33,231 bases of DNA from Candidatus Aminicenantota bacterium (GCA_030610885.1 JAUWQW010000018.1:1-33231); one strand, 5' to 3'; positions 2,143 through 14,262 are shown, numbered from the stretch's first letter. The notes: generated from the sequence alone by a model not told the origin. Numbers and translations: made by a program.

Positions 2143-2172
2143 TTGACAATGCAAGGCTAAATCTTTTATTAT
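2143..2172 (+). promoter_or_regulatory. Predicted promoter of the AOR operon
   Basis: TTGACA (2143-2148) is followed after 18 bases by TATTAT (2167-2172). It lies about 75 bases ahead of the AOR start and is back-to-back with the divergent DHH promoter. Confidence 0.5.
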
Positions 2173-2246: not shown

Positions 2247-4034
2247 ATGTATAAAGGCTACAAGAACAGATGTTTACTGGTGGACTTAAGCAAAAAAAAG
2301 TACTTATATCAAACACCTCCAAAAGATTTATTCGAAACATTTATAGGCGGAAAAGGGGCTGGCTTAAAATTAATGGTTGACATGGGATTAATAACTCATG
2401 ATCCTTTTTCTGATGAGAATCCCCTTATATTTATAACAGGCCCTTTTACAGGTTCCCTTGTTCAAACATCTGGAAGATCTGCATTAGTGACAAAATCCCC
2501 ACTTACAGGAACTTTCCTTGATTCTCATGCTGGTGGATACTTTGGACCAATGGTAAAAAAAGCCGGGGTTGATTATATTATAATTACAGGGAAAAGTGAC
2601 AAGCCAGTTTATCTTCATATAACTTCAGAAGGAGTAAAGCTTGAAGATGCTTCATCCCTCTGGGGATTGGGAATATTTGAAACAGAGAAAAAACTGAAAT
2701 CAAAATATCGAGAAGCAAGAATTGCAAGCATTGGACCTGCAGGGGAAAACAAGGTGAAATTTGCCTGCATTGGAACTGAGTTATACAGACAATTTGGGAG
2801 AGGTGGCTCCGGAGCAGTAATGGGATCAAAAAAATTGAAAGCAATAGTTATTGAAGGTAATGAAAAAATTGATATTCATAATAGAGAAAAATTTATGGAA
2901 TTAAACTCCGAACTTACAAGGGATATCATGCAGCACCCAAATAGGGAAAAAAGATTCGAACTTGGCACAAATATGTGGATACGAATGGGTCAAGAAGATG
3001 GTAAATTTTTACCTACAAGAAATTTTAAAGATGTTGAATTTGAAGAGTATGAAAATATCACTTCTGAAAGCATGAAGAAAAAACTGAAATGGGAAAGTGT
3101 AGGCTGTTTTAATTGTGGAATCCTGTGTTCAAAATTGGCACATTGGAAAGATTATGAGCTTGAGGGGCCTGAATATGAGACAACTGCTTTCCTTGGTTCA
3201 GGATGCGGTATTGGCGATGCTGAAAGTATTGCATATGCAAATTACCTATGTGATGATCTTGGTATAGATACAATTTCAACAGGAGTGGTAACCTCTTTTG
3301 CAATGGAAGCATTTGAAAAAGGAATTTTAACTGCAAAAGATACAAATGGAATAAATTTGAAATTCGGAAATGCTGAGGCTCAATTTTCTTTAATAAGGAA
3401 AATTGCAAAACGCGAAGGCATTGGTGATCTACTTGCAGAAGGTTCACGAATTGCATCAAAAAAAATCGGGAAGGGAAGTGATTATTTTGCAATTCAAACT
3501 GCTGGTATGGAACTTTCAGGTGTTAATATAAAAGGATGTGCATCTATGGGATTAACCCTTGCCACATCAGACTTTGCAAGCCACACACGATTCTGGTCAG
3601 CTTCAGATGAAATGAATGGTTTACTCACATTTGAGAATACTCCGCCTTATATTAAAAAAGGCCAGGATGAGATTAATGCAAGAAATTCTTTAATTGTGTG
3701 TGATTTTCTCCCATACGGTTTTGACAGACTAATTCCAATTCTTGAGAGTTTAACTGGAATTGAGATGAATGAAAACAACATTACAAAAATCGGGGAAAAA
3801 ATCTCAAATATAACCAGAATGTATAATATTAAAAATGGAAGAACAAGAAAAGATGATACTCTTCCCCAACGATTCTTCAAAGAAGAGCATTTATCTGGTA
3901 TATTTAAAGGAAAATTTATGCATGAAGAGATATTTGAAGAATGGTTAGATATGTATTATCAGGAAAGAGGATGGAATACAAAAGGTATTCCTACAGATGA
4001 AAAGTTAATGGAATTGAGTCTTAAAAGAATATAA
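2247..4034 (+). CDS. Aldehyde:ferredoxin oxidoreductase (AOR family, tungsten enzyme)
   Basis: This 595-aa protein is full length for the AOR family. Such enzymes oxidise aldehydes to carboxylic acids, or reduce acids, using a tungsten bis-pterin cofactor, one [4Fe-4S] cluster and ferredoxin. The N-terminal domain shows GGKGAGLKLM and the stretch GPFTGSLVQTSGRSALVTKS. The cluster ligands are visible as Cys287, Cys290 and Cys294 (CFNCGILC) plus Cys485 (VCDFLPYG). They match the spacing known from Pyrococcus AOR (Cys288, 291, 295, 494). The start is ATG with AGGAGG at 2233-2238. It is the first gene of a tight four-gene unit with an aminotransferase, an unassigned protein and a homoserine dehydrogenase-like enzyme. 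The substrate is therefore probably an aldehyde from amino acid or 2-oxo-acid metabolism (inference). No cofactor-synthesis genes are in the window. Confidence 0.96.
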   Translation: MYKGYKNRCLLVDLSKKKYLYQTPPKDLFETFIGGKGAGLKLMVDMGLITHDPFSDENPLIFITGPFTGSLVQTSGRSALVTKSPLTGTFLDSHAGGYFGPMVKKAGVDYIIITGKSDKPVYLHITSEGVKLEDASSLWGLGIFETEKKLKSKYREARIASIGPAGENKVKFACIGTELYRQFGRGGSGAVMGSKKLKAIVIEGNEKIDIHNREKFMELNSELTRDIMQHPNREKRFELGTNMWIRMGQEDGKFLPTRNFKDVEFEEYENITSESMKKKLKWESVGCFNCGILCSKLAHWKDYELEGPEYETTAFLGSGCGIGDAESIAYANYLCDDLGIDTISTGVVTSFAMEAFEKGILTAKDTNGINLKFGNAEAQFSLIRKIAKREGIGDLLAEGSRIASKKIGKGSDYFAIQTAGMELSGVNIKGCASMGLTLATSDFASHTRFWSASDEMNGLLTFENTPPYIKKGQDEINARNSLIVCDFLPYGFDRLIPILESLTGIEMNENNITKIGEKISNITRMYNIKNGRTRKDDTLPQRFFKEEHLSGIFKGKFMHEEIFEEWLDMYYQERGWNTKGIPTDEKLMELSLKRI

Positions 4035-4091
4035 TTAAAAAAATTTGTAAGGATAAACTAAAAATATCTTTATAAATAGAGGAGGAAAAGA

Positions 4092-5273
4092 ATGAAAAAA
4101 TCGCATGATCAATTAGCTAATAGAACCTCTTTACTGAAACCTGAAGGAGCATATGAAGTACTGGCAAAAGCCCAAAAATTAGAAGCTTGTGGACGAGAGA
4201 TCATTCATCTTGAGATTGGGCAACCTGATTTTCAAACATTTCCAAATATAGGAATCACAGGTATCCGTGCTATTGCTAATGGAGAAACCAGATACACACC
4301 CTCTGCTGGTATTCCAGCTCTTAGAAAGGAGATCGCAGATTATACGGGTTCTCGTATAGGAATGGATATTTTACCTGTACAGGTGGTTGTAGGACCTGGA
4401 GCAAAACCCCTCCTCTTTTTCCCTATGATGGCTCTTCTGGAACCAGGTGATGAAGCAATCTATCCTGATCCTGGTTTTCCCAGTTATCGTGCTATTATAG
4501 AAATAATGGGAGCAGAACCAATTCCAGTTCCTTTAAAAGAAGAAAAGGGATTCTCATTTGATATGCACGAATTTGAGAGGAGAGTTAATAAAAATACACG
4601 CCTGGTTATTATAAATTCCCCTTCCAATCCTACGGGTGGTATTATCCCTGAATCTGACCTGAAGATCATTGCTGAAGCTTCACAGAAATATGACTTCTGG
4701 GTTATAAGTGATGAGATATATACTAGATTAACCTATATTGATGAACCAGTTCTCAGCATTATGACCTTGCCTGGCATGAAGGAGAGAACCATAATAATGG
4801 ATGGATTCTCAAAAACCTATGCAATGACAGGATGGCGACTTGGTTATGGTATTATGCCAAAACAGCTTGCGCATAAAGTCAGCCTTTTAATAACACACTC
4901 TGTAGGATGCACAGCTACATTTACACAAATTGCAGGTATAGAAGCCCTTTCTGGCCCGCAACAACAAGTAGAGGAAAAAAGGAATGTGTTCCGAAAAAGA
5001 AGAGATGTGATTGTAAAAGGGCTAAACAAAATCCCAGGAGTTAGTTGCCAGATGCCATTAGGTGCTTTTTATGTATTCCCGAACATTAAAAGTTTCGATC
5101 GCTCATCAGATGATCTGGCCAATTACTTACTTGAAGACTCTGGAGTGGCTTTACTTCCCGGGACATCATTCGGAGATATGGGAGAAGGTTATTTACGTCT
5201 CTGTTATGCTAATTCTATTGAAAGGATTGAAAAAGCATTGGAATTAATAAAACAGTCTCTGGCTAAATTATGA
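4092..5273 (+). CDS. Class I/II PLP-dependent aminotransferase (AspC-like)
   Basis: The 393-aa protein is a fold-type I aminotransferase. The PLP lysine is Lys241 in DGFSKTYAMTGWRLGYG. The cofactor-contacting motifs NSPSNPTGG and SDEIYTRLTY and the substrate-carboxylate arginine in YLRLCYANS are all present. Length is typical of aspartate/aromatic aminotransferases of the AspC/PatA group. It transfers the amino group of an amino acid to 2-oxoglutarate or another oxo acid; the preferred amino acid cannot be read from sequence. The ATG follows a GAGG site and lies 57 bp after the AOR stop, with no terminator between. Operon membership suggests it makes or consumes the 2-oxo acid or amino acid handled by its neighbours (inference). 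Confidence 0.94.
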   Translation: MKKSHDQLANRTSLLKPEGAYEVLAKAQKLEACGREIIHLEIGQPDFQTFPNIGITGIRAIANGETRYTPSAGIPALRKEIADYTGSRIGMDILPVQVVVGPGAKPLLFFPMMALLEPGDEAIYPDPGFPSYRAIIEIMGAEPIPVPLKEEKGFSFDMHEFERRVNKNTRLVIINSPSNPTGGIIPESDLKIIAEASQKYDFWVISDEIYTRLTYIDEPVLSIMTLPGMKERTIIMDGFSKTYAMTGWRLGYGIMPKQLAHKVSLLITHSVGCTATFTQIAGIEALSGPQQQVEEKRNVFRKRRDVIVKGLNKIPGVSCQMPLGAFYVFPNIKSFDRSSDDLANYLLEDSGVALLPGTSFGDMGEGYLRLCYANSIERIEKALELIKQSLAKL

Positions 5274-5322
5274 ATTTAAATATTTTAAATAATTATTTAA
5301 TAATATAAATAAGGAGGAACAA

Positions 5323-6567
5323 ATGAGTTTACACTATAATTTTTTAAACAAAAAAGAGATGCAACAAATGGATGCATTAAAAGAATCGTATGGAGGAGCA
5401 TCAGAAATCGAAAATTCTATTAAAAAATTACGTGATTACAAAGAGAGAAAAGAAATAGCTGAAGAAAAGGGTTTTGGTGAAACACTATACAAAGCTGAAA
5501 CTTATGTTAAATCATTTGCAAAGATAGAAGATTTTATTGAGAAAGAGAATATTAAGATTACAAAACCTGGTATTGCTACAGCACAAGTCTCTGGCTGGCA
5601 GGGAGCACCTGTGACACTGAGAGGCATGAAACGAATAGCAGAAGATGGAGAAACACTGGTTCCAGCAGAATTTATCTCTGTAATGGCACTCAGTGAAGAT
5701 TACGTTTTAAACGGAGAATTAATAACAACCCTGGCAATGACTGAAAATATAATGAAAATTGAAAAGTTTTGTAATGCAAATCTTATAAGTACACCCCTCT
5801 CTAATGAAGCTTTTGATCGATTAGAAAAGATCTGTGGAGAAAAATTCGAAACATGGGAACCTGCATCAGGTATGAGAACTTTAATTTTAAAAAATCAGGG
5901 CACTCCATTTGGTAATCTTGGTGGTGTTGAGGTTGCAAACAACAATCATCTGGTCTATATTGATGGAATAACTAGAGCTGCAGTAAACACTGGTTCTGAT
6001 TTCTTCCTGAATCCAAGCTGGTCAACTATTGTTGCTGCTTGCTACTATGCTCGAGACATAAAAAATATGTCATTCAAAATATCAATGCTTCTTGCAACAC
6101 AGAATGCAATCCAACTCCGTATGCTTTTGAATATTATGAAGGAATATATACGTGATGATGGCACAACACCTATTTATGAGATTAACCTTGGCAATGGGAT
6201 GAGCCCTGAAATGTTCATTCAATGTGCAAGAGAGTTAGAAGAATCTGGAATTAGCGGAGTCTCTTTAGCTGCACATTTGCGCATAAATCCTGATCTTGGT
6301 TTAAAAGACTTTGACTGGACAGAGAATGCTGATATAGTACTGAATTCTGGTACTAACATTACAATTAAATATGAAAGCGATGGAACTTCCAGGCCAATGG
6401 ATACAATGGAAACCTACTTTCTTCCAAAAGAGGAACGCTTGAAAAATGCAGAACAAATTGGCGATGTTATTTACTATAAAAGTGTTCGATGCACAAAGGA
6501 TGCAAAAAATATTATGAGACATGGACATAAAGTAAAATTTGCTGGAATATCTTACTACAACAAATAA
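5323..6567 (+). CDS. Protein of unknown function in the AOR operon
   Basis: I do not recognise this 414-aa protein. It has no signal peptide and no membrane segment, so it is probably cytosolic. The first 90 residues are charged and helical. The rest is rich in small residues and alternates predicted strands and helices: VTLRGMKRIAEDGETLVPAE, TPFGNLGGVEVANNNHLVYI, then EINLGNGMSPEMFIQCAREL and SGISGVSLAAHLRINPD. That pattern could be a TIM-barrel-like or other alpha/beta enzyme fold, but this is only an impression. Conserved-looking polar stretches (EVANNNH, DGITR, NTGSDFF, HGHKVKF) may form an active site. The ATG has AAGGAGG upstream. It lies 49 bp after the aminotransferase and 19 bp before the dehydrogenase, so co-transcription is very likely. 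It is probably the enzyme that defines the pathway. Confidence 0.85.
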   Translation: MSLHYNFLNKKEMQQMDALKESYGGASEIENSIKKLRDYKERKEIAEEKGFGETLYKAETYVKSFAKIEDFIEKENIKITKPGIATAQVSGWQGAPVTLRGMKRIAEDGETLVPAEFISVMALSEDYVLNGELITTLAMTENIMKIEKFCNANLISTPLSNEAFDRLEKICGEKFETWEPASGMRTLILKNQGTPFGNLGGVEVANNNHLVYIDGITRAAVNTGSDFFLNPSWSTIVAACYYARDIKNMSFKISMLLATQNAIQLRMLLNIMKEYIRDDGTTPIYEINLGNGMSPEMFIQCARELEESGISGVSLAAHLRINPDLGLKDFDWTENADIVLNSGTNITIKYESDGTSRPMDTMETYFLPKEERLKNAEQIGDVIYYKSVRCTKDAKNIMRHGHKVKFAGISYYNK

Positions 6568-6586
6568 TCAACAAAAGGAGAAAAAA

Positions 6587-7609
6587 ATGAAACAAAATAT
6601 CGCATTGTTGGGTTTTGGGACAGTTGGACAGGGATTGTCTGAAATACTTTTAAAAAAACGCACAGAATTAAAACAAAGATATAATTATGAATTTGAAATA
6701 GTAGCAATTAGCGACCTAGCATGGGGAACAGTTTATAATCCTGATGGTCTGGATATAAAAACAATGCTGGAAAGAGTTAAGAGAGGGGGGAAATTCTCTC
6801 AGGATGTGAAAGATTGGAGTGCTATAGAAATGATAAAAAAATCTAATGCAAATGTGGTATGTGAATTAAGTTTTACAAATCTTGAAACTGGGGAACCTGC
6901 TATTTCACATTGTAAGGCTGCATTTGAAAATGGAAAACATATTGTTACAAGCAACAAAGGTCCAGCAGCACTTGCATATCATGAGATGAAAAAATATGCA
7001 CACAATAATGGAGTTGAATTTTTGATAGAAGGTACAGTTATGAGCGGAACTCCCGTGTTAAATTTAGCTGAAGGACCTCTTGCAGGTTGTGAGATATCTG
7101 CAGCTCGAGGAATCTTAAATGGAACAACAAATTACATGCTTACTCAAATGGAAAATGGTATGGATTATAATGAAGCTCTAAAAAAGGCTCAAGAACTTGG
7201 TTATGCAGAAGCTGACCCAACAGGTGATGTTGAAGGATATGATGCACGTGCAAAAGTCACAATACTTGCAAATGTTGTTATGGGAACACCTATCTCTATC
7301 TCAAATGTTTCCTGCAAAGGAATAACAAAAATTTCTATTAATGATATAAATGAAGCAAAAAAACAAAATTCCAGATGGAAACTGATTGGTTCAGTAGAGA
7401 AAAAAGATGGGAAGGTTCTTGCTTCAGTTGCGCCTGAAATAGTCCCATTATCACACCCTCTTGCTGGAATAATGGGAGCAACTAATGCTATTACCTTTAC
7501 AACAGATTTACTGGGAGACGTAACAATGGTAGGTCCCGGAGCTGGAAGAACTGAAACTGGTTATTCAATCTTAACAGACTTAATGAAAATTCAAACTGAA
7601 ATTAAATAA
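6587..7609 (+). CDS. Homoserine dehydrogenase-like NAD(P)-dependent oxidoreductase
   Basis: The protein has 340 aa from the ATG at 6587, which follows AAAGGAG by 6 bases. An in-frame upstream start at 6539 would overlap the preceding gene and has no ribosome site. The N-terminus has the Rossmann motif GFGTVGQG. The catalytic domain has GTVMSGTPVLNL, RGILNGTTNYML and the homoserine dehydrogenase signature AEADPTGDVEGYDARAK. Homoserine dehydrogenases interconvert aspartate semialdehyde and homoserine. This one lacks the C-terminal ACT domain, so threonine feedback is not expected. In a normal threonine operon it would sit with thrB/thrC or aspartokinase. Here it is the last gene after AOR, aminotransferase and an unassigned protein, so a related substrate or the oxidative direction is possible (inference). 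Its stop overlaps the convergent diguanylate cyclase gene by 8 bp. Confidence 0.92.
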   Translation: MKQNIALLGFGTVGQGLSEILLKKRTELKQRYNYEFEIVAISDLAWGTVYNPDGLDIKTMLERVKRGGKFSQDVKDWSAIEMIKKSNANVVCELSFTNLETGEPAISHCKAAFENGKHIVTSNKGPAALAYHEMKKYAHNNGVEFLIEGTVMSGTPVLNLAEGPLAGCEISAARGILNGTTNYMLTQMENGMDYNEALKKAQELGYAEADPTGDVEGYDARAKVTILANVVMGTPISISNVSCKGITKISINDINEAKKQNSRWKLIGSVEKKDGKVLASVAPEIVPLSHPLAGIMGATNAITFTTDLLGDVTMVGPGAGRTETGYSILTDLMKIQTEIK

Positions 7610-10600
7610 TTATTTGATCTAAATTAAAGACATGTATTCTATTTCTTCCAAGTTTTTTTGCCTGATATAAAGATTTATCTGCTGATAAGATCAACATTAA
7701 TTTGTCATTCTCTTTAGAAGGAATAAAAGTTGCAACTCCTAAACTTACAGTCACTACATTGTTTATACTTGACCCTTTAAAAGAGATTTGCTTATCAATA
7801 ATATTTTGTTTGATTTTTTTTGCTATAAAAACTCCACCCTTTAAATCAGTATTTGGCATTATGATTCCAAATTCTTCTCCGCCATAACGGGCAACAAGGT
7901 CAGCTGGACGATTTAATACACCCTTCATTACTTGAGCAATCATTATCAAACAATTATCCCCTGCCTGATGCCCATAAGTATCATTAAAAAGTTTAAATAA
8001 GTCAACATCTGCCATAATTAATGATATTGGTTTTTGTTCACGCCTTGCTCGATCCCACTCTCTATCTAAATAATCCTGAAAAGTACGGTGATTAGCTATT
8101 CCAGTTAATCCATCTTCTCTAGCTAAACGCTCAAGTGTATCATTGGCTTTTTTAAGTTGTCTTGTTCTCTCATCAACAAGTTCTTGAAGTTTTCTCTTCT
8201 GAGTTTCAATATTCCTTATCCTTTTCTTTAATAATATAAAAAGAGTTCCTATCAAAATAATTAATATTATAATTTTAAATAACAAAGTCTGTGTAAATGG
8301 TGGAATGATCTTGATCTTAATAGATATACCCTCCTCATTCCATACACCATCATTGTTTGAGCCTTTAACTCTGAAAGTATATTCCCCGGGATCAAGATTT
8401 GTATAAGTAGCAAAACGCCTTTTTGAGTCAGTATGTATCCATTCCTTATTAAAACCCTCCATCTTATAAGCATATTTATTCCTGTCTGGAACTCTATAGT
8501 CTAAAGCTGCAAACTCAAAGGAGAAAACACTTGCTTTATATGAGAGTTCTATTTCTTTAGTTTCTGTTATGGGCCTTTTAAGGATCACATTGCCATTTAA
8601 TTTTTTTCCTATATTTAAAGACTTATTAAATATTTTGAAATCTGTAATAACTATAGGAGGTATGTGAGGATTATCCTTTATACTATCAGGATAAAAACAG
8701 TTGAACCCATTCATCCCGCCAACAAATATTTCTCTCCTAGGACTTATACAAAAAGCTCCACGCATGTAACCTTCACTTTTTAAAGTATCACCAATATCAT
8801 AGTTTTTTACTGTTTTTGCTTCAGGATTGAATTTAGATACTCCACTATCTGTTCTTAGCCAAATATTCCCCTCATCATCTGCTACTATTCCCATTATTTT
8901 ATTACTCAATAAAGAATCTCTTCCTGAAAAATGAGTGAACTTCCCTGAGGTTTCATCAAATTTATCCAACCCCCAATCACTTCCAATCCACAATGTGCTT
9001 GTTTTGTCCTCAAATATAAAAAAAACCCGATCCATTTGCTTCTGAGCTCTTGTACCTGTATCATATTGGTATGTTCTAAATTGTTTTGTTTGTCTATCAA
9101 ATTTATTTATTCCATTTCCAGTTCCAATCCATAGATTGTTAGAACTATCTTCATATATGCACCAAACCTCATCATGACTTATAGAGTTGGGATTATCAGA
9201 GTCATACTTATAATGTATAAATTTTCCTGTATCTCTATCAAACTCATTAAGTCCTCCTGTATAACATCCAACCCACAGGGTATTTGAATGATCTTCATAT
9301 ACACATACAGCACCTCCACTGCCCAAGCTATCATGATTATTAGGATCATATTGATATCGAGTAAATTTTTTAGTTTTTCTATCTAATTTATCCAATCCAG
9401 CATCTGTTCCAACCCACAGTGTATTCGAATGATCTTCATAGATATACCACACTTCATTATGACTCAAACTATTGGGATCGTTTTTATCATATTTATAAAG
9501 CCTGAAATTTCCTGTTGTTCTATTAAATTCATTAAGCCCTTCACGAGTTCCAATCCATATTATACCTGAATGATCCTCAAAGATTGATAATACAGAATTA
9601 TCTACTAAACTATTTGGATTATTAGCATTATGTGTATAACATACAAATTTCTTCGGTTTTAAATCAAATTTATTAACCCCTCCCCCAACTGTTCCAACCC
9701 ACATAATTCCTGACGAATCTTCAAATATACATCTGATATTTTTTGAACTTAATCTTCCAGTATTAGTTGAATTATCTAAAAAATACGTAAGTTTTTCTGT
9801 GTCTGGGTCAAACACATACAATCCATATCCTGTTCCTATCCAAATTTTTCTTCTTGAGTCCTCATATATATTGTTTATTGTAGTATTACCAAAAATATCT
9901 GTACCCTTTAGATTATATAAAAAACGAGTAAATGCACCTGTTTTGGAATTGAAACGATTCAATCCATTTTGGGTTCCAACCCACAAAGTTTCAGATGAAC
10001 TTTTATAAAGAGCACGAATACGATTACTACTGACACTATGCGGGTTATTTGGATCATGATAGTAGTGAACAAATTGACCTGTTTTAGAATCAAAGCGATT
10101 TAGCCCATTACTTGTTGCAATCCATAACTGCACAGCTCTACCTTCTTCAATAGCCCAAATTCTATTATTACTGATACTGTTTGGATTATTTGGGTCATGT
10201 TGATAACGCACAAATTTCTCTATTTTTGGATTAAATTTATTAAGACCACCTTGATATGTTCCAAACCAAAACATACCATAATGATCCTCAAAAAGCGACT
10301 GTACACGATTATCGCTAATACTGTTGGAATCATTCTTATTGAAAATATATGAATAGAAATTTCCTGTTTTTGTGTCAAACTTATTTAAGCCACCACCCCA
10401 TGTACCAATCCATATTATACCAGATCTATCTTTAAACAGATTACCTGGACTATTACTTGAAATTGAGTTGGCATTCAATGGGTCATATTTATATGCAACA
10501 AAATTATATCCATCATATCTTATAAGTCCATCAGTTGTTCCAAACCATATGAAACCTTGATTGTCTTGAACAATTGAATACACAGTACTATTAGGAAGCA

Positions 10601-10721
10601 AATGTTCAATGGTGATGTGACCAAACTTAATACTATCTTTTTCCGCATGCAGATTAAAAAATAAGCTTAATGTTATAATAACTCTAAATATTATTCCAAA
10701 TTTTATAGATTGTTTTGTCAA
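7602..10721 (-). CDS. Propeller sensor diguanylate cyclase (Reg_prop x14, Y_Y_Y, GGDEF)
   Basis: This protein of about 1039 aa makes cyclic di-GMP in response to an extracytoplasmic signal. A signal sequence/first helix is followed by 14 repeats of the two-component-regulator propeller type (IWIGTxxGLNKFD pattern), enough for two seven-bladed propellers. A Y_Y_Y domain follows at about 730-815, with RNKYAYKMEGFNKEWI and PGEYTFRVKGSN. Next are a membrane helix (about 815-838), a short coiled coil and a GGDEF domain. The active site is GGEEF at 947-951, and RPAD five residues before it matches the RxxD product-inhibition site, so it is probably active and feedback-controlled. I chose TTG at 10721: GGAG lies 6 bases before it, whereas a TTG at 10733 has no such site. 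The architecture resembles Bacteroidetes hybrid two-component sensors with the kinase replaced by GGDEF. It follows the TraB gene by 20 bp. Confidence 0.93.
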   Translation of the reverse strand: MTKQSIKFGIIFRVIITLSLFFNLHAEKDSIKFGHITIEHLLPNSTVYSIVQDNQGFIWFGTTDGLIRYDGYNFVAYKYDPLNANSISSNSPGNLFKDRSGIIWIGTWGGGLNKFDTKTGNFYSYIFNKNDSNSISDNRVQSLFEDHYGMFWFGTYQGGLNKFNPKIEKFVRYQHDPNNPNSISNNRIWAIEEGRAVQLWIATSNGLNRFDSKTGQFVHYYHDPNNPHSVSSNRIRALYKSSSETLWVGTQNGLNRFNSKTGAFTRFLYNLKGTDIFGNTTINNIYEDSRRKIWIGTGYGLYVFDPDTEKLTYFLDNSTNTGRLSSKNIRCIFEDSSGIMWVGTVGGGVNKFDLKPKKFVCYTHNANNPNSLVDNSVLSIFEDHSGIIWIGTREGLNEFNRTTGNFRLYKYDKNDPNSLSHNEVWYIYEDHSNTLWVGTDAGLDKLDRKTKKFTRYQYDPNNHDSLGSGGAVCVYEDHSNTLWVGCYTGGLNEFDRDTGKFIHYKYDSDNPNSISHDEVWCIYEDSSNNLWIGTGNGINKFDRQTKQFRTYQYDTGTRAQKQMDRVFFIFEDKTSTLWIGSDWGLDKFDETSGKFTHFSGRDSLLSNKIMGIVADDEGNIWLRTDSGVSKFNPEAKTVKNYDIGDTLKSEGYMRGAFCISPRREIFVGGMNGFNCFYPDSIKDNPHIPPIVITDFKIFNKSLNIGKKLNGNVILKRPITETKEIELSYKASVFSFEFAALDYRVPDRNKYAYKMEGFNKEWIHTDSKRRFATYTNLDPGEYTFRVKGSNNDGVWNEEGISIKIKIIPPFTQTLLFKIIILIILIGTLFILLKKRIRNIETQKRKLQELVDERTRQLKKANDTLERLAREDGLTGIANHRTFQDYLDREWDRARREQKPISLIMADVDLFKLFNDTYGHQAGDNCLIMIAQVMKGVLNRPADLVARYGGEEFGIIMPNTDLKGGVFIAKKIKQNIIDKQISFKGSSINNVVTVSLGVATFIPSKENDKLMLILSADKSLYQAKKLGRNRIHVFNLDQIII

Positions 10722-10741
10722 TCCATTCTCCAATTTATAAA

Positions 10742-12815: not shown

Positions 12816-12858
12816 TTAACTTTTCATACAAAAAAATTTTCAAAAGCTGAGGTTGCAT

Positions 12859-14262
12859 ATGGGTCAGATCTTACATTTTATTGACAGTATAATAGTAAAA
12901 TACAATGAGTATGTAGGCGGATACCTGCTTTTAATAATGCTCGTACCTACAGGAATTTATTTTGCTATTAAATTTAATTTCCTTCACATAACAAAGCTTT
13001 CACATGCTATTAAAGTAATAAGTGGTAAATATGACAAAAAAGAGGATACAGGAGATATCAATCATTTTCGCGCCCTTACAACAGCATTATCAGCAACAAT
13101 AGGAACCGGAAACATAGTTGGTGTTGCTCTTGCCATATATTTCGGAGGGCCTGGTGCTGTATTCTGGATGTGGGTTACAGGTTTTCTGGGAATGATATTA
13201 AAATTTGTAGAGTGCACTCTCTCTTTTAAATTCAGAAAGATACACAAGGATGGATCGATCTCAGGTGGTCCTATGTATTATATGGAAATGGGTTTAAAAG
13301 AAAAATTCGGGCCTTTTGCAAAGGTTATTGCAGTGATTTTTGCTGCTGCTACTATATTGTGCTCAATTGGAACAGGAAATATGGCACAATCCAACTCAAT
13401 CTCAGATGTTTTAAGATCAAATTACAGCATTCCAACATGGCAAACCGGATTAATATTATCATCTTTTGTACTTCTTGTAATTGTAGGAGGAATAAAAAGA
13501 ATTGCAGAGGTTACTTCAAAACTTGTCCCTTTTATGGCTTTCTTATATTTTGCAAGCGCTATCACAGTGATTATGATCTTTTATAATAAAATCCCTGATG
13601 CATTTTTCCTGATACTTAACAGCGCATTTACTGGAACTGCAGCATATGGCGGGTTTATTGGTTCTTCTTTTATTATTACACTCAGATTTGGTGTAGCAAG
13701 AGGGCTATTTTCAAATGAAGCAGGTCAGGGTTCTGCAGCAATTGCTCATGCAGCAGCAAAAACAAAATATCCTGTAAGAGAGGGACTGGTAGCCTCAGTT
13801 GGTCCATTAATAGATACTCTTATAATCTGCAGTTTAACTGCTTTTACAATCATATTAACAGGTGCATGGAGAACAGGGATAAAGGGAGTAGGAATGACTG
13901 TAGAGGGATTCACAAGAGGGCTTTCACATATAGGAATAGGCGCAATGGGTCCACATATTGTTGCTGGAGGATTGATTCTTTTTGCATTCTCTACCATTAT
14001 AAGCTGGTCATATTATGGAACAAGGGCTGCAGAATACCTGTTAGGATCAAAATCAATTAAACCATACAGATATGTTTATGGTATATTTGTATTTTTAGGT
14101 TCAATATGGGGAATTGATATAGTATGGCACTTTGTTGATATGGTAATAACATTTATGACAATTCCCAATTTAATCGCAATATTAATATTATCACCTATTG
14201 TAAAAAAGGAAGTTAAGAAATATTTTGAATTAATGAGCAAAGATCAGAACAAGCTCCTCTGA
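12859..14262 (+). CDS. Sodium:alanine symporter, AGCS family
   Basis: This is an inner-membrane protein of about 467 aa with roughly ten hydrophobic segments. Family motifs include FRALTTALSATIGTGNIVGVA near residue 70, ISGGPMYYMEMGL, GTGNMAQSNSI, and GLFSNEAGQGSAAIAHAAA near residue 290. AGCS transporters take up alanine or glycine with Na+. The ATG at 12859 is preferred because GAGG lies 6 bases upstream; a TTG two codons earlier has no room for a ribosome site. It is transcribed alone from a strong promoter, divergent from tatD. Amino acid import fits the aminotransferase/AOR operon 5 kb away only loosely. The 3' end abuts the hisC-like remnant with no terminator between. Confidence 0.95.
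   Translation: MGQILHFIDSIIVKYNEYVGGYLLLIMLVPTGIYFAIKFNFLHITKLSHAIKVISGKYDKKEDTGDINHFRALTTALSATIGTGNIVGVALAIYFGGPGAVFWMWVTGFLGMILKFVECTLSFKFRKIHKDGSISGGPMYYMEMGLKEKFGPFAKVIAVIFAAATILCSIGTGNMAQSNSISDVLRSNYSIPTWQTGLILSSFVLLVIVGGIKRIAEVTSKLVPFMAFLYFASAITVIMIFYNKIPDAFFLILNSAFTGTAAYGGFIGSSFIITLRFGVARGLFSNEAGQGSAAIAHAAAKTKYPVREGLVASVGPLIDTLIICSLTAFTIILTGAWRTGIKGVGMTVEGFTRGLSHIGIGAMGPHIVAGGLILFAFSTIISWSYYGTRAAEYLLGSKSIKPYRYVYGIFVFLGSIWGIDIVWHFVDMVITFMTIPNLIAILILSPIVKKEVKKYFELMSKDQNKLL

Follow-up and report, generated by a model that had tools for sequence, protein, structure and literature searches.

Gene content of the window

The window analysed here, 33,231 nucleotides in length, is one contig of a 2.5-Mb MAG (G000, 92.6% complete). 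Among named organisms, Candidatus Aminicenantes are closest to this MAG. The window carries four tightly packed genes encoding an aldehyde oxidoreductase of the tungsten family (AOR), a class I/II aminotransferase, a 414-aa protein termed P3 and a homoserine dehydrogenase (HSD), all on the + strand (Table 1). An earlier note, made from the DNA alone, had described them as a closely packed unit with strong ribosome sites, and re-reading reproduces this exactly: the intergenic gaps are 57 bp (AOR/aminotransferase), 49 bp (aminotransferase/P3) and 19 bp (P3/HSD), and the four starts read aaggaggaaaaaaat-ATG for AOR, gaggaggaaaaga-ATG for the aminotransferase, aaggaggaacaa-ATG for P3 and aaaaggagaaaaaa-ATG for HSD. 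The ORF lister begins the HSD gene at TTG 6539, within the P3 gene, and the ATG at 6587 is preferable.

The single upstream promoter that had also been claimed fares less evenly. The top match of the promoter scan is also the best site upstream of the unit and is close to consensus, but promoter-like sites in the scanned region are no more numerous than expected (27 versus 22.6 +/- 5.1 in shuffles), and this site is at best a plausible promoter of the unit. Between the four genes there is no forward hairpin of terminator type; the sole forward match (2381-2400) lies inside the AOR gene, in a scan that did no better than shuffles. A divergent DHH-like gene lies upstream of the unit, and at 7602-10733 a gene for a large Reg_prop/Y_Y_Y/GGDEF protein converges with the HSD gene and overlaps its end by 8 bp. 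Farther along the window (12853-14262), a gene of the Sodium:alanine symporter family possibly encodes an amino-acid importer; no tie to the four-gene unit was seen.

Table 1. Position and basis of assignment of the four genes and the upstream promoter-like site
Feature	Position	Strand	Basis
Promoter-like site, best upstream of the unit	2143..2172	+	TTGACA-18-TATTAT, 11/12 consensus match only
AOR, WOR-family large subunit (P0001, 595 aa)	2247..4034	+	Pfam AFOR_N/AFOR_C; ligand cysteines; tree clade
PLP aminotransferase class I/II, aspartate-aminotransferase-like (P0002, 393 aa)	4092..5273	+	Pfam Aminotran_1_2 PF00155, 9e-69
P3, new protein family (P0003, 414 aa)	5323..6567	+	No family match; 157 relatives; AF2 model; conserved residues
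HSD (P0004, 340 aa, ATG 6587)	6587..7609	+	NCBIfam PRK06270; Pfam Homoserine_dh PF00742; motif

HSD and its aldehyde oxidiser

P0004 scores 443.8 bits against PRK06270 (cut-off 373), which places it among the HSDs, with the NAD_binding_3 domain alone just under its cut-off (22.3 versus 24). It keeps GxGxxG, the SNKG lysine and the active-site motif A-x3-G-Y-A-E-x2-P-x2-D-V-x-G-x-D-x3-K, and the full catalytic motif is present in 61 of the 63 HSDs compared. The HSD reaction is reversible in principle, and the PRK06270 annotation carries no direction. This would allow a biosynthetic HSD that reduces aspartate semialdehyde to homoserine, with AOR a mere aldehyde detoxifier and the unit a fragment of threonine/methionine biosynthesis, and aspartate kinase, aspartate-semialdehyde dehydrogenase (ASD) and threonine synthase (ThrC) are indeed present in several P3-bearing relatives. 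G000, however, has exactly one HSD, and a profile search of its genome brought up neither aspartate kinase nor ASD nor ThrC above the cut-offs, a provisional result given that the MAG is incomplete. Because this genome lacks both a second HSD and those three enzymes over cut-off, there is a strong, if not final, case that P0004 is not an ordinary enzyme of threonine/methionine biosynthesis. Furthermore, a branch with 100/100 support sets 61 HSDs of the P0004 type, whose partners are aldehyde oxidisers and IclR regulators, apart from two ThrC-linked HSDs, and I consider the biosynthetic explanation improbable.

The same type of HSD was found on plasmid pRL8 of Rhizobium johnstonii 3841 (R. leguminosarum), where an aldehyde dehydrogenase (ALDH) gene directly follows and genes for aminotransferases, homoserine kinase, RidA and an amino-acid transporter lie near. 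I take this HSD to be pRL80071; the matched record bears other locus tags. pRL80071, a putative HSD, is induced in the pea rhizosphere (PMC3333776). According to PMC10228743 (citing Liang 2022 and Vanderlinde 2014), its orthologue falls in an HSD group strongly directed to homoserine oxidation and lies near a gene cluster for homoserine catabolism. At 50% identity to the pRL8 HSD, P0004 is a candidate member of this oxidation-directed (Arthrobacter/pRL80071-type) group, whose mark is one-way oxidation of L-homoserine. The window shares with pRL8 the HSD type, an aldehyde oxidiser in the same gene set and an aminotransferase nearby, whereas pRL8 has an NAD-type ALDH in place of AOR, lacks P3, and encodes in addition an amino-acid ABC transporter, RidA and homoserine kinase. 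The rhizobial type is marked by HSD adjoining ALDH; the aldehyde oxidiser of the window is AOR, so the unit falls outside that type, and ALDH appears in relatives from other phyla. By analogy, the unit would resemble the rhizobial homoserine catabolism cluster in its working while being a different cluster. The earlier note knew of no named pathway with this set of genes; homoserine catabolism with a homoserine-oxidising HSD has in fact been described for Rhizobium, though with neither AOR nor P3 (PMC10228743, citing Vanderlinde 2014), and the remark is right only in part.

A second point of comparison is a plasmid region for ectoine/hydroxyectoine use in Priestia megaterium, where an HSD (53%) is likewise followed by an aldehyde oxidiser and aspartate would arise from a C4 compound of the aspartate family. 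There HSD-ALDH comes after EutB, cyclodeaminase, M24 and M20, and both AOR and P3 are missing. The ALDHs of P3 loci share 51-61% identity with those of pRL8 and Priestia.

P0001 combines AFOR_N and AFOR_C with the [4Fe-4S] cysteines C287-x2-C290-x3-C294 and C485, the domain make-up of a class I WOR, and like that class it is a single large subunit with no adjacent small-subunit gene. Its family membership suggests that it would bind tungstopterin and use ferredoxin as acceptor. G000 has five AORs, the four others lying on contigs C43, C63, C124 and C24 (L002-L005), and the HSD-linked AORs form a single clade (97/98) separate from these four; all 17 AORs of that clade keep the C-x2-C-x3-C motif. 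HSD also adjoins AOR where P3 is absent (G008, G014, G042, G045), and other P3-less relatives have ALDH in this position. HSD and an aldehyde oxidiser, either AOR or ALDH, form a module. These adjacencies, together with the exchange of AOR for ALDH, bear out the theme of homoserine/aspartate-semialdehyde oxidation that the earlier note had put forward, and oxidation of homoserine by HSD and AOR is probable.

From their families, HSD would oxidise L-homoserine to aspartate 4-semialdehyde with NAD(P)+, and AOR would oxidise the semialdehyde to aspartate, passing two electrons to ferredoxin and replacing the NAD-linked ALDH that accompanies rhizobial homoserine-type HSDs. Such a ferredoxin-linked substitute for ALDH in homoserine use would let fermenting or syntrophic bacteria in sediments save energy, and aspartate semialdehyde becomes the proposed physiological substrate of one AOR/WOR clade. 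A 2026 survey of WORs (PMC13328260) gives a defined role for only five of 92 clades; it assigns aspartate semialdehyde to no characterised WOR, and the words 'homoserine' and 'semialdehyde' are absent from its main text. Literature searches on AOR + HSD operons, AOR of Aminicenantes and HSD of Cloacimonadota found nothing.

The P3-less HSD-AOR and HSD-ALDH operons also carry an IclR regulator, a PF04199 cyclase-family protein and a probable porin, with an SNF-family symporter in two loci. In L163, L164, L169, L170 and L175 the first three of these head the operon, an arrangement that may serve the use of an imported lactone or amide of homoserine.

Conservation of the gene set

Of 60 near genomes, 14 have a P3 relative, and the GTDB contig set gave matches at 157 places, of which the best 80 belong to Aminicenantes, WOR-3, Stahlbacteria, Zixibacteria, Cloacimonadota, Latescibacterota, Fermentibacteria, Bacteroidales and a few others. 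Other genera of the same Aminicenantia family keep the order AOR-aminotransferase-P3-HSD, in many cases together with an IclR regulator, and in Bacteroidales (L103, L116) the set is arranged cupin-P3-aminotransferase-SDR-HSD-AOR. The earlier note had made a shared pathway depend on the genes being adjacent in more than this one genome, and they are.

Partners were counted at 81 P3 loci (same strand, within 6 kb); the counts are lower limits, as many contigs are short, and the loci are related rather than independent events. HSD is present in 43, ALDH in 15 and AOR in 13; an aminotransferase of a second type is present in 42 and one of the first type in 12. Cupin (34) and SDR (30) are frequent in other P3 clusters; both are absent from the unit in the window and have no role in the scheme proposed below. 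Less common partners are a cystathionine-gamma-synthase-family protein (9), IclR (6), ThrC (5) and homoserine kinase (4). AOR, HSD and aminotransferase occur together within 6 kb in 11 of the 81 loci, many others being cut by contig ends. Among the 81 loci, none has both AOR and ALDH, every locus with ALDH also has HSD, and no locus with ThrC does.

The conservation of both order and set across genera and phyla supports the view that the four genes belong together. P3 does occur without these partners in some loci of WOR-3, Stahlbacteria and Latescibacterota, which counts against a pathway. One might then regard AOR as a general aldehyde detoxifier and the four genes as a loose association with no common pathway: AORs occur in several copies per genome, as in G000, and many have a broad substrate range and accept many aldehydes. 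Against this stand the conserved arrangement, the exchange of AOR and ALDH beside HSD, and the dedication of one AOR clade to this position, and I regard a loose association as very unlikely.

P3, a new family with a predicted barrel fold

No relative of P3 was found in Pfam, NCBIfam or the PDB, and its profile gave just two matches among solved structures, both non-significant and unrelated. Structure prediction, which the earlier note had named as a check, yielded a confident AlphaFold2 model (82 sequences; pLDDT 93.3, pTM 0.93) with a helical N-terminal part followed by eight alternating strands and helices, that is, a (beta/alpha)8 or TIM barrel. The polar residues S90, N230, K252, S254, N288, N291, H318, K349 and E351 are invariant even when relatives down to about 22% identity are included, and in the model they lie at or near the C-terminal ends of strands 1, 4, 5, 6, 7 and 8. 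Since TIM-barrel active sites sit at the C-terminal strand ends, P3 is predicted to be, very likely, an enzyme. It represents a new and highly conserved family across several uncultured phyla, for which formation of homoserine is a testable prediction.

A Foldseek search of the model against the PDB and viral models returned only generic TIM barrels, with TM-scores of at most about 0.5 on the target. A B12/PLP aminomutase was considered after a weak Foldseek match of a first, poorer model to ornithine 4,5-aminomutase, and was rejected along with lysine 5,6-aminomutase alpha: none of the 82 members matches PF09043. A genome search with PF09043 carries little weight by itself, as control genomes were also without a match. 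RuBisCO large chain was likewise rejected, the PF00016 matches being weak (18 of 82 members, best 2.9e-5) and out of register; two that were examined closely reach 12-14 bits against a cut-off of 30.1. In these, residues ~319-400 of P3 (its last strands) align to the first strands of RuBisCO.

A possible source of homoserine

What would P3 and the aminotransferase contribute? The earlier note had cast the 414-aa protein as the missing step of an oxidation route. This finds no support in that form, because conversion of homoserine to aspartate semialdehyde and on to aspartate needs only HSD and AOR; P3 and the aminotransferase more likely act upstream. P0002 itself is a class I/II aminotransferase whose best NCBIfam models are aspartate aminotransferases, with scores below the equivalog cut-offs (322.5 versus 550 and 315.7 versus 624), so that it is aspartate-aminotransferase-like rather than an assigned equivalog.

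The Cloacimonadota are informative here. In L090, L093 and L096 a P3-aminotransferase(-SDR-cupin) module is followed by HSD-ALDH, whereas in L084, L100, L111, L113 and L115 it is followed by ThrC-homoserine kinase; in L115 and L102, ASD and aspartate kinase (both named by eye) lie upstream. Homoserine is the compound common to both outlets, and is therefore the likeliest product of the P3-aminotransferase module. Five genomes have ThrC in the P3 cluster (G452, G460, G467, G469 and G470); in each of them ThrC is over cut-off, and no HSD was found in any. ThrC and homoserine kinase near P3 with no detectable HSD pose a missing-enzyme puzzle in their own right; a P3 route offers one way in which some Cloacimonadota might form threonine in the absence of HSD. 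The main alternative for these genomes is that the SDR acts as a substitute HSD. In some ThrC-bearing Cloacimonadota, catabolic-type HSDs could serve threonine synthesis too.

On balance, I favour reading the unit as an anaerobic pathway of homoserine oxidation joined to a step that supplies homoserine. Its parts differ in strength. That P3 and the aminotransferase together make homoserine is somewhat less likely than not, though a serious candidate; that 4-hydroxy-2-oxobutanoate is the intermediate, a 2-oxo acid from P3 that is then aminated, is doubtful. In the speculative scheme, P3 would yield a C4 2-oxo acid, in the simplest case 4-hydroxy-2-oxobutanoate, which the aminotransferase would turn into homoserine, aspartate perhaps donating the amino group. 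If aspartate is the donor, HSD and AOR would regenerate it and the net product would be oxaloacetate. More tentatively, P3 may be a new family forming 4-hydroxy-2-oxobutanoate (built from pyruvate plus a C1 unit, for instance, or made from a C4 sugar acid by dehydration) which, with the aminotransferase, would provide an HSD-independent route to homoserine, feeding threonine synthesis in the HSD-less Cloacimonadota or ferredoxin-linked oxidation by AOR to aspartate in Aminicenantia and Bacteroidales. The synthetic homoserine cycle, built from a 4-hydroxy-2-oxobutanoate aldolase, an aminotransferase, homoserine kinase and threonine synthase using promiscuous E. coli enzymes such as RhmA (PMC8879981), would have a natural counterpart in P3, aminotransferase, homoserine kinase and ThrC if P3 makes 4-hydroxy-2-oxobutanoate. 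However, P3 matches no known aldolase family.

The flow might also run the other way, with the aminotransferase turning homoserine into 4-hydroxy-2-oxobutanoate, P3 cleaving this by a retro-aldol reaction to pyruvate and formaldehyde, AOR acting on formaldehyde or aspartate semialdehyde, and HSD as a parallel outlet. Aldolases and KDO8P synthase are among the best Foldseek barrels, albeit without specific kinship, and a thinly sampled distant group of P3 (~22% identity) has neighbours in keeping with such a reaction. One member (L035 9736-16179) adjoins Fe-ADH, AOR, a D-2-hydroxyacid dehydrogenase (named by eye from sequence) and a LarA-like (lactate-racemase-like) protein; another, on a Polaromonas plasmid (L149 2961-15248), lies opposite an operon with a DapA-type protein, a TRAP transporter, Fe-ADH and SSADH. 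These neighbourhoods are also compatible with hydroxy or oxo acids being converted into aldehydes and acids. The ThrC-homoserine kinase variants in HSD-less genomes nevertheless favour a module that makes homoserine, and the consuming direction seems unlikely.

The family assignments do not fix the substrate, and the alcohol and hydroxyacid dehydrogenases beside distant P3 relatives could suggest that another gamma-hydroxy amino acid is the substrate of the HSD-like enzyme and of P3, and that the unit degrades it by the same logic of alcohol to semialdehyde to acid. I think this distinctly unlikely: the HSD active-site motif is intact in nearly all of the sequences compared, P3 loci are linked to ThrC, homoserine kinase and aspartate kinase/ASD, and P0004 shares 50% identity with an HSD from a documented homoserine-use region.

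Homoserine may have further sources beside HSD-aldehyde oxidiser pairs. Cystathionine-gamma-synthase-family proteins, absent from the unit in the window, are encoded near HSD-AOR in an Aminicenantia relative (L174 2540-6640) and near HSD-ALDH in the Priestia region (L182 4533-9521); the two are 61.5% identical, and this protein is possibly another homoserine-yielding enzyme.
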